Below are positions 6,870 to 16,706 of a stretch of 23,307 nucleotides of DNA, in pieces. The stretch's first letter is position 1. The number at the start of each line of letters is the position of its first letter. The DNA comes from a virus. The notes beneath the pieces are model-generated. The model saw only the letters and a list, made by a program, of their open reading frames with translations, had not been told where the DNA came from and did no database searches. The DNA is taken from IMG/VR virus record IMGVR_UViG_3300011010_000410, positions 1 to 23,307 of that record; one strand, given 5' to 3'. A program made the position numbers and the translations under genes.

Positions 6870-9029
6870 TCAGACCTGGGTGCGCTTTGCTTCGTGGCGG
6901 GCGATGGCTTCACCGATCCAGGACATCACAGGTACTGCCATTGAGTTGCCACAAGCTTTATATCGCGGTCCGTCCACGCAGTCCTCGGCAGGCTTACCCT
7001 TCCAAGGGATTCTGGACCAAAACCTTGGAAACCCCTGGAGGGCTTCGCATTCCTCTGGCGTCAAGCGACGCACGGCCATCGGCACTACTGGCTCTATATT
7101 CTGGACGAGCGGTACATTACCGCCCCCAGTACCAAACTTTGCGGCGACGGTCGGGGCTACGTCGAGCGGTCCATTTACCCTGCTGTCCTGGGCGTGATTT
7201 TCGTACACCGCACCGACGACTGCATGAGTCGTGCGCGTATCACCTAGGTCAAAGTTGTTCAGCGTGTTGCTTGCGTCGGCGGAAACCCACGTCTCATTGT
7301 CGGTCGTGGACTGGGCGCGCTTCGACTTGCGGAATGGTAAGGGCTGGCCGACCAAGAAAGAATGATCTCCCATTCGGTGTTGATGGCCGGCGCAAGAGTG
7401 ATGCCCGACAGTAAGCGTCCCTGCCACGTCAGAGCATATTGGGACGCCAACGGCCTGCGCGCCAAGGGTGTCGAGGGTGTAAGCAGGGTCGCCTGGCTGT
7501 CCGACGCCAAGTCCGTTCTGGTTCTTCTCAATGGCGCGTCCGTCGTCAATCGGTATAGCCTGCTGCGCGAGATGTAATGCGGTGATCTCGTCGATAGCCT
7601 CTTCAGAGCTACCACCACGGCTACCCTTGCAGGTCGTGATGGTCGGGCTGACGATGGGATGCACGATAGCCATGCCCCCCTGGTTCTTATTCGGGCTAGG
7701 ATTAGTGGTGTCGATGGTGTTTGCTCGGTCAACCTCGCGACAACCGCTATTGGGATTAGAAGACTTCATTGAATTAGATGCGAGTGAATCAAAGTTATAG
7801 GCCGTAGGTTGAGCAAGCCATTGGTCGGGAGCGGTGGCTATGGTGAACGCCTTGTTTTCACTTCCGAGGAAGCCCTTGCCTGCCGCCTTACCGGGTGTAC
7901 CGCCCTGCTCGCCGGTTTCGACTGGCGAACCTCCACGGATCTTGAACATCATCGGGATGCCGACCGCGTGAGGACCGCGAGCTACTAGGCTATCCATCAC
8001 CTCGGATTCACCGATGTGCGGGACGTACTGCGCGTTCTCGCCTTGGTTAAAAGCAGCGCGGTCAATGACGATGGGAGAAGTCGGGATGATATGTCCGTTT
8101 GTAATGGACTGATGGGTCAACTTGCCGCCGCCGCATTCCGTATCCAACGCTCCGATTACATTGGGAACGACGACGCCTTGGAAGTTGGCTTTGTCGGGCA
8201 TCAGTTGATCCATTCCCTTTCGGGTGAGGGTATTGACGACATCGTTTCCGTTCCAGTATTGGGGGATGATGTTCGCAGCGGAACCGTCGCAAGCCAGACC
8301 GGCGTCCGCACCCTTCGCCCACTTGGCGGTTACGGTTGCGGAGGCAGGGTGGATGCCGTCTGCTCCAACGCGGCTTTTAGCATCGGCGGAAGATCCTTTC
8401 CGCGTTTGCTTGCCCTTCTCAATATACCCAGACAAGCCCTCGGCGATAGATAGAATCTCTGCGGCAGCCTGCCAGTCTCCAAGACCTGTGACAGGGTCGC
8501 GATAGGCCAGGACGAAGACTCGCCGGCGACGTTGCGGGGTGCCTCTAAAGTGTTGAGCGTCCAGGATTCTCCAAGCGACGCCATACCCGCGCTCGACCAA
8601 CCCTTGAATGAAGCATCCGAAGTCAGATCCTTTAGGTTGACCGGACGACAGGACGCCTGGGACGTTCTCCCATAAAACGTAGCGGGGATTGAGCTTTGAA
8701 GCCAGCTCAAGAAAGGAGAGCATAAGCTGTCCGCGTGGGTCGTTGAGGCCGCCTCTTTTGCCTGCGACTGAAAATGCTTGGCATGGGGTCCCTCCAACGA
8801 GTAGGTCCACATCTCCAGTTGCGAGGGGCCAGGTGTTAAATTCGGTGAGGGATCCGAGGTTGGGGACGTCATATGGGTAGTTTGGTTGGGTGAAATGGTG
8901 CTTCAAAATGGCGCATGGGAAAGGCTCGATTTCGCTGAACGCCACTGGCTTGAAGCCGAGGTGATGCCAGGCGACGGAGGCTGCTTCCATACCGGAGCAG
9001 ACGGAGAGATATCGGATAGGTTGGGGCAT
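6870..9029 (-). CDS. DNA cytosine-5 methyltransferase with a very large repetitive insert
   Basis: A 719-aa enzyme with the expected order of C5-methyltransferase motifs: I (YLSVCSGMEAAS, 7-18), IV (GGTPCQAFS, catalytic Cys83), VI (ENVPG), VIII (QRRRRVF, near 168), then IX-X at the C-terminus (RRLTPEECEALQGFP, YKACGNSMAVPVM). It transfers a methyl group from AdoMet to C5 of cytosine. About 490 residues separate motif VIII from motif IX, far more than in typical 330-400-residue enzymes. They contain many short variants of a [A/N]-x-T-[L/I/V] unit, suggesting a repetitive target-recognition region. The leader CCCAACCCA abuts the ATG and a promoter-like pair lies just upstream. A 180-codon ORF is nested in another frame of the first third. 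Confidence 0.9.
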   Translation of the reverse strand: MPQPIRYLSVCSGMEAASVAWHHLGFKPVAFSEIEPFPCAILKHHFTQPNYPYDVPNLGSLTEFNTWPLATGDVDLLVGGTPCQAFSVAGKRGGLNDPRGQLMLSFLELASKLNPRYVLWENVPGVLSSGQPKGSDFGCFIQGLVERGYGVAWRILDAQHFRGTPQRRRRVFVLAYRDPVTGLGDWQAAAEILSIAEGLSGYIEKGKQTRKGSSADAKSRVGADGIHPASATVTAKWAKGADAGLACDGSAANIIPQYWNGNDVVNTLTRKGMDQLMPDKANFQGVVVPNVIGALDTECGGGKLTHQSITNGHIIPTSPIVIDRAAFNQGENAQYVPHIGESEVMDSLVARGPHAVGIPMMFKIRGGSPVETGEQGGTPGKAAGKGFLGSENKAFTIATAPDQWLAQPTAYNFDSLASNSMKSSNPNSGCREVDRANTIDTTNPSPNKNQGGMAIVHPIVSPTITTCKGSRGGSSEEAIDEITALHLAQQAIPIDDGRAIEKNQNGLGVGQPGDPAYTLDTLGAQAVGVPICSDVAGTLTVGHHSCAGHQHRMGDHSFLVGQPLPFRKSKRAQSTTDNETWVSADASNTLNNFDLGDTRTTHAVVGAVYENHAQDSRVNGPLDVAPTVAAKFGTGGGNVPLVQNIEPVVPMAVRRLTPEECEALQGFPRFWSRIPWKGKPAEDCVDGPRYKACGNSMAVPVMSWIGEAIARHEAKRTQV
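8330..8872 (-). CDS. nested out-of-frame ORF, 180 aa, FYLSPRACLGILRRA-type
   Basis: This ATG-to-TAA frame lies wholly inside methyltransferase codons 53-233, on the same strand but in another frame. Its C-terminal half (YGRTSQASC at 67-75, GESWTLNTLE at 101-110, LSQVLETG at 127-134, RFYLSPRACLGILRRASKRG at 139-158, then LPPMLKAALE) resembles, from memory, a recurrent phage hypothetical-protein family annotated next to methyltransferases. The sequence ACCCAACCAAAC sits about 6-17 bases before its ATG. It may be a genuine overlapping gene or a frame shadow of conserved methyltransferase motifs; the family resemblance alone cannot decide. Confidence 0.4.
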   Translation of the reverse strand: MTSPTSDPSPNLTPGPSQLEMWTYSLEGPHAKHFQSQAKEAASTTHADSLCSPFLSWLQSSIPATFYGRTSQASCRPVNLKDLTSDASFKGWSSAGMASLGESWTLNTLEAPRNVAGESSSWPIATLSQVLETGRLPQRFYLSPRACLGILRRASKRGKDLPPMLKAALEQTASTLPPQP

Positions 9030-15998: not shown

Positions 15999-16364
15999 TC
16001 AAGACTTGGGTTTGGTCAACCGTTTCAGCCACCTATAGACTTTGCCCAGTTGCTGGGCATTGGCCGAAGACTTGATTCGGTTAGCCAGGTAACAAACCAC
16101 CACCACGTTGCCCCTTATGTAACCCTTGGAATTATCGACTCGGTCGATGGTAGGGGAGCTGTCGATTGGAGTGCCGTCTACCCCCCTCTTAAATGTTATG
16201 CCCAGTACTGGGCATACTGTGCCAATCGGGATGTCGGAGGGCTTTAGATCGAATTCTAGGCCGGACCGGGACGCCCTCTGTTTGGCTAGGCCGAGAAGGT
16301 ATCTCGCCGGATTTGCGGTCCGGTATATCTTTAGCCAGGCGGCCTTCTCTGGGCCGGTGCTAAT
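15999..16364 (-). CDS. HNH-like phage endonuclease with an AUU start
   Basis: The frame is open from the TAG at 16365-16367 to the TGA at 15999 and encodes 121 residues. The pattern is a recurrent phage HNH-like family: LAKQRASRSGLEFDL at 26-40, CPVLGITF at 51-58, SPTIDRVDNSKGYIRGN at 70-86, ANRIKS at 94-99, and a C-terminal helix. The Asp-Arg, Gly-Asn and Ala-Asn positions are the conserved catalytic/metal-type residues. No ATG, GTG or TTG precedes the conserved region. The best start is ATT at 16364 (then Ser-Thr-Gly-Pro), directly after the neighbouring gene's double stop. It probably nicks or cuts DNA. A 5' defect or sequencing error is the alternative. Confidence 0.7.
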   Translation of the reverse strand: MSTGPEKAAWLKIYRTANPARYLLGLAKQRASRSGLEFDLKPSDIPIGTVCPVLGITFKRGVDGTPIDSSPTIDRVDNSKGYIRGNVVVVCYLANRIKSSANAQQLGKVYRWLKRLTKPKS

Positions 16365-16370
16365 CTAGGT

Positions 16371-16706
16371 TTAGCGCCACTTGCCGCTCCGTAGGAGCAG
16401 GCCAATAACGCCATAGTTTGCGAGATCGGACCAAGAATCGATGATCGGTTCATTGGTGGCAGCCGGCTCGCCCTTCATCTCCTTGGTGAGGAGATTCCGG
16501 ATGCGGCTTACCTTATCCTGGGTGCGGACCATGACACCCAACTCGCCGTTCAAACTGATATTACTACTCCCATAGTCCATCTGCTTACGGTCCATAAGCT
16601 GGGCCAGGGGAATAATGGCGCGGAGGTATTCGCGTCCCATTTCAGTCTGTAGGCCGAGATCAGCGTGGAGCTTATCGGCCAGGGCGTCGGTTTCAATGTT
16701 GGGCAT
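16371..16706 (-). CDS. Nmad1 (DUF1599)-like nucleotide-modification-associated protein
   Basis: The 111-aa protein carries MDRKQMDYGSSN (38-49), then LNGELGVMVRTQDKVSRIRN (52-71) and a C-terminal IDSWSDLANYGVIGLL block (89-104). This matches the small helical Nmad1/DUF1599 family, found in phages and associated with modified nucleotides by comparative genomics. The start at 16706 is chosen because GGGAGG lies about 10 bases upstream; the GTG at 16730 is an alternative. It is 46 bases after the giant gene and is followed, after a double stop, by the HNH-like gene. Confidence 0.7.
   Translation of the reverse strand: MPNIETDALADKLHADLGLQTEMGREYLRAIIPLAQLMDRKQMDYGSSNISLNGELGVMVRTQDKVSRIRNLLTKEMKGEPAATNEPIIDSWSDLANYGVIGLLLRSGKWR

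Follow-up and report, generated by a model that had tools for sequence, protein, structure and literature searches.

Weak near-cognate codons at the predicted start of a nuclease-like phage gene family, mostly behind DUF1599

A stretch of viral DNA of 23,307 nucleotides (IMG/VR record IMGVR_UViG_3300011010_000410; the whole stretch that was analyzed, hereafter the window) carries a small conserved gene that offers no canonical start codon. Here, we ask where translation of this gene would begin, how ribosomes would reach that point, and whether the weakness of the start codon is itself conserved.

Locus and predicted product

The small HNH/PacI-like gene (15999..16364, minus strand; 121 codons plus stop, with a weak near-cognate start) lies behind a gene for DUF1599 (nucleotide modification associated domain 1; 16374..16706, minus strand; ATG start at 16706), which is preceded by a Shine-Dalgarno sequence in the window and in its closest relatives. 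Read along the minus strand, the DUF1599 stop TAA (16371..16373; TAA, TAG, or TGA in relatives) is followed by a 6-nt spacer, ACC-TAG (16365..16370), which contains a second in-frame stop (TAG, 16367-16365), and then by ATT (16362..16364), from which 121 codons stay open up to the stop at 15999. The nuclease-like frame is that of the upstream DUF1599 gene, a point absent from the initial annotation. That annotation had otherwise read the locus in the same way, with ATT directly after TAA-ACC-TAG of the upstream gene (16373-16362), and had described a lack of ATG, GTG, and TTG before the conserved core; we likewise found none of these codons in frame between the tandem stops and the core of this open reading frame, and codon 1 of its relatives (39 loci, described below) is similarly weak. 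Its expectation that standard gene callers would miss the gene agrees with the standard open reading frame listing of the window, from which the gene is absent. The window gave no Rfam match and no tRNA, which leaves no sign of an intron or other known RNA. Elsewhere on the minus strand (6870-9029), a C5-cytosine methylase of 719 aa has its N- and C-terminal conserved blocks separated by ~400 aa.

The predicted product matched the PHROG family phrog_3322 (endonuclease; E value, 5.4e-29) and, more weakly, HNH (phrog_3118, HNH endonuclease; E value, 4.4e-11) and Srd/sigma-decoy families. The closest PDB fold to its AlphaFold model (pLDDT, 87) was the rare-cutting HNH restriction endonuclease PacI (PDB 3ldy), but the match was weak (E value, 1.8e-3; TM score, 0.54; 19% identity over the structural match), and a PDB sequence search returned no match. 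No HNH model was matched in a Pfam search, and the alignment of relatives, in which D74, R75, N86, N95, and K98 are invariant, contained no invariant histidine of the kind that is catalytic in HNH/His-Me finger nucleases. The PacI active site also includes an Arg. The earlier description of the gene as HNH-like finds some backing in the PHROG match and the PacI-like fold, and none in Pfam or in a conserved histidine; "nuclease-like" appears to be a fair name for the predicted protein, which may also have lost nuclease activity and act on transcription, as with its Srd relatives.

Codon 1 across relatives

Related loci (39 from IMG/VR) were collected via protein similarity, with the start codon playing no role in selection; use of the DUF1599 protein as a query, which is blind to the nuclease start, added many loci beyond the closest relatives. 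The nuclease-like gene lies behind DUF1599 at 37 loci and behind other genes at two (L129 and L134). At 90% protein identity, the 39 loci formed 26 clusters, 24 of them DUF1599-linked, and all cluster counts given here are not independent, as the sequences share ancestry. A nucleotide search against isolated phages gave no match and so turned up no cultured representative of the DUF1599-nuclease pair. The nuclease-like gene is missing beside DUF1599 in some relatives; at another locus (L090:3001-3332), the DUF1599 frame is apparently broken by a one-base indel and the nuclease frame is intact.

Codon 1 was CTG in 8 clusters, ACG in 6, ATT in 5, ATA in 4, and ATC in 3, and ATG, GTG, or TTG in none (0/26). 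Weak near-cognate codons therefore fill codon 1 in 26/26 clusters; they were found in 3/26 at the preceding codon, in 0/26 at the following codon, and at a frequency of 10.8% in gene bodies. Wherever codon 1 is a Thr codon it is ACG (6/6; ACG makes up 22% of Thr codons within the genes), and wherever it is a Leu codon it is CTG (8/8; 30% of Leu codons within the genes). The DUF1599 gene served as a control within these contigs: in all 22 testable clusters, ATG lies at or beside the conserved DUF1599 N terminus. Sister groups (L135-L145) start with ATG or GTG, and in the outgroup (L147/L253, including the Dinoroseobacter phage R5C relative) the residue aligned with codon 1 is encoded by ATG. 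Among 146 distinct HNH-type open reading frames, 26 were without a canonical start ahead of the core; the weak-start clade accounts for 24 of them.

Alignment with homologues, which the initial annotation had proposed as a check on its choice of ATT, places the Met (ATG) of the R5C protein at this residue and weak near-cognates there at the 39 loci; by this comparison, ATT (16364-16362) is strongly supported as the translation start of the nuclease-like gene. A special role for AUU was not borne out, since relatives have AUC, AUA, ACG, or CUG at the same position. Among the 11 close IMG/VR relatives that reach the start (80-99% identity), 9 (85-99% identity) carry TAG-ATT and 2 carry ATC without the second stop; a miscalled base, for which the initial annotation had proposed a check of the reads, is therefore excluded.

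Purifying selection was assessed as pN/pS over two body segments, with values of 0.23 and 0.12 in the ATT clade, 0.25 and 0.11 in the ACG clade, and 0.15 and 0.72 (codons 61-112) in the ATA clade, the last value being high because L080, L081, and L083 have lost one codon, after which the compared codons are out of register. Codons 2-11 gave 0.39-0.57, with constraint present and weaker than in the body. Judged by these ratios, the predicted gene is under purifying selection.

On the protein tree, codon 1 changed at least 8 times among weak-start genes (9 if L086, on a long branch, is included), and a minimum of 5 changes between the classes AUH, ACG, and CUG was required (6 including L086); 200 bootstrap trees gave 7-8 codon changes and 4-5 class changes. 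A change of class takes two substitutions, with AUG as the sole intervening start codon, and AUG intermediates likely existed during these changes. AUG was seen at codon 1 in none of the 39 weak-start loci. Our main argument is that, because AUG intermediates are likely and yet none was observed, weakness itself would be under selection. We think it rather likely that selection holds the weak class in place, with five near-cognates interchanging and AUG, GUG, and UUG purged. This would throttle, at the level of the codon and perhaps as a switch responsive to IF3, a phage nuclease whose coupled partner, DUF1599, is a gene of nucleotide metabolism. The pattern suggests that evolution has kept production of the nuclease-like protein very low.

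Several annotations of relatives were looked at alongside. The public annotation of the Dinoroseobacter phage R5C endonuclease (L253:892-927) starts at a later ATG, 33 nt further in, and the alignment suggests that the true start is the ATG 33 nt upstream of the annotated one. One of the two open reading frames outside the clade (L287:1474-1520), an HNH relative in another context, begins TAA-CTG-TAT without a canonical start before the core and, as a single locus, may be a further CTG start. HNH relatives in four Caulobacter phages (L248, L249, L250, and L252 for Magneto, Ccr5, Karma, and CcrPW, respectively) are unannotated or truncated in public records; they have usable ATG or GTG starts and were therefore rejected as examples of the same kind.

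Ribosome delivery and alternative readings

Of the 24 DUF1599-linked clusters, 21 have a spacer of 6 nt between the DUF1599 stop and codon 1 and 3 (L085, L087, and L212) have one of 7 nt; none has a Shine-Dalgarno sequence before codon 1 (approximately -2.5 kcal/mol against the anti-Shine-Dalgarno). Coupling of translation weakens sharply as the distance grows, and distances from -8 to +10 nt have been taken to predict it (PMC10666635); the short intergenic distance of a termination-reinitiation pair was found in 24/24 of these clusters. Initiation at non-canonical codons is inhibited when IF3 is raised, and so is re-initiation at sites that have no Shine-Dalgarno sequence (PMC2268962). Because of the 6- to 7-nt spacer, the absent Shine-Dalgarno sequence, the published range, and the IF3 effect, we favor termination-reinitiation with a throttle and consider it probable that this living phage gene is started at near-cognate ATT by ribosomes that have terminated on DUF1599, with the weak codon limiting output.

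From these comparisons, we infer four elements. Translation would begin at ATT (16364-16362), where initiator fMet-tRNA would pair near-cognately. Ribosomes would be delivered by re-initiation, those ending DUF1599 at TAA starting again 6 nt downstream without a Shine-Dalgarno sequence. Output would be low, since a small fraction of ribosomes would start at the weak codon and the nuclease-like protein would be very scarce relative to DUF1599; the target of selection would be this weakness, with AUU, AUC, AUA, ACG, and CUG tolerated and AUG, GUG, and UUG removed. Low output may serve to hold back a nuclease that is costly or selfish. In E. coli, near-cognate codons of this kind initiate at about 0.01-1% of the AUG level, and start-codon stringency in the phage host may differ from that in E. 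coli.

The two loci with other upstream genes bear on how general the coupling is. At L134, where the upstream gene encodes a deoxynucleoside monophosphate kinase, the nuclease start again lies 6 nt past its stop. At L129, codon 1 sits 25 nt past the preceding stop, and coupling is therefore not universal. Both have a strong Shine-Dalgarno sequence before CTG (-12.2 kcal/mol in L134 and -10.0 kcal/mol in L129), as would suit independent binding of the 30S subunit at the weak codon, with DUF1599 translation unneeded or merely opening RNA structure. A possible hairpin, from the 3' end of the DUF1599 frame to the first base of its stop (16373..16412, minus strand), also fits that account; none of its 14 pairs has changes on both sides, and the signal may reflect merely DUF1599 protein conservation. 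We regard independent binding as unlikely, given that a usable Shine-Dalgarno sequence is absent from all 24 DUF1599-linked clusters, in which the spacer after the stop is nearly fixed. As a separate observation on L134 (817-1467), the kinase gene occupies the DUF1599 slot and the nuclease is retained, which is a gene exchange beside the nuclease.

The gene might instead act as a sensor, with expression rising when initiation fidelity drops, as when free IF3 is scarce, ribosomes are poorly recycled, infection is at a late stage, or the cell is stressed. All five codons found at codon 1 belong to the class that IF3 discriminates against, as it does against re-initiation without a Shine-Dalgarno sequence (PMC2268962), but simple low-level expression accounts for the data just as well, and we give the sensor a comparably small chance.

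Codon 12 is ATG in five clusters and TTG in one (of 26), and an alternative start could lie there in these six. As a general account, a true start at a canonical codon at codon 12 or later, which would make codon 1 irrelevant, is improbable: codon 12 is not a strong start codon outside the six clusters, canonical codons are missing ahead of the conserved core in most clade members, including the window, and residues 2-11 are constrained.

Readthrough of TAA/TAG into a DUF1599-nuclease fusion, for which no start codon would be necessary, draws on the common frame of the two genes in the window and in 21/24 DUF1599-linked clusters. As a general explanation it is nonetheless refuted, as many relatives, including the window, have tandem in-frame stops, the 7-nt spacer of three clusters (L085, L087, and L212) places the nuclease outside the DUF1599 frame, L129 and L134 follow other genes, and the constant near-cognate at codon 1 would be left unexplained. 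Bypassing of the T4 gene 60 type, with a GGC...GGC hop, was dropped as well, since the repeat does not hold generally and the frame across the spacer is variable. A decayed gene or an assembly artefact, with the start lost through mutation or miscalled, would account for a window without a canonical start and is refuted by the identical pattern at 39 loci, purifying selection, and the restriction of codon 1 to five codons.

Comparison with known systems

To our knowledge, bacterial weak near-cognate starts are known mainly from single genes. The present family would amount to a natural, replicated evolutionary experiment, in which one start site is CUG, ACG, AUU, AUA, or AUC by lineage and never strong, so that selection for low initiation itself, and the control of phage nucleases, become testable. 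It also points to a class of conserved genes that standard callers miss or mis-start because only ATG, GTG, and TTG are considered. Taken singly, starts at weak near-cognate codons, translational coupling, and phage homing endonucleases with throttled translation (PMC3014915) are all known already; in the open-access literature, we found no gene family with a weak start class conserved while the codon itself changes, and no phage endonuclease family with weak near-cognate starts.

E. coli infC, which encodes IF3 and starts with AUU, shares with the present gene a weak near-cognate bacterial start, and the infC start is IF3-sensitive. It has a single codon and is autoregulated by its own product, whereas the present family has five interchanging weak codons and a nuclease-like phage product; the infC-like autoregulation raised in the initial annotation finds no support, as the product is not IF3 and, being nuclease-like by PHROG and fold, is unlikely to act on initiation. 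The homing endonucleases I-TevI, mobE, and segB of T4-like phages are likewise phage nuclease genes with translation held down (PMC3014915), but in those genes the ribosome binding site and/or the AUG is sequestered in an RNA structure, whereas the weakness in the present family lies in the start codon. Termination-reinitiation pairs (PMC10666635, PMC2268962) resemble the present arrangement in its start 6-7 nt past the upstream stop without a Shine-Dalgarno sequence; they most commonly overlap by 4 or 1 nt, while the present start lies downstream of the stop and is never canonical. The ShiLan element (PMC11855218), a hidden out-of-frame HNH in mycobacteriophage methylases, was also overlooked and has no detectable Shine-Dalgarno sequence, but its HNH starts with GTG within another gene, whereas the present gene would start with a weak near-cognate codon behind a stop.
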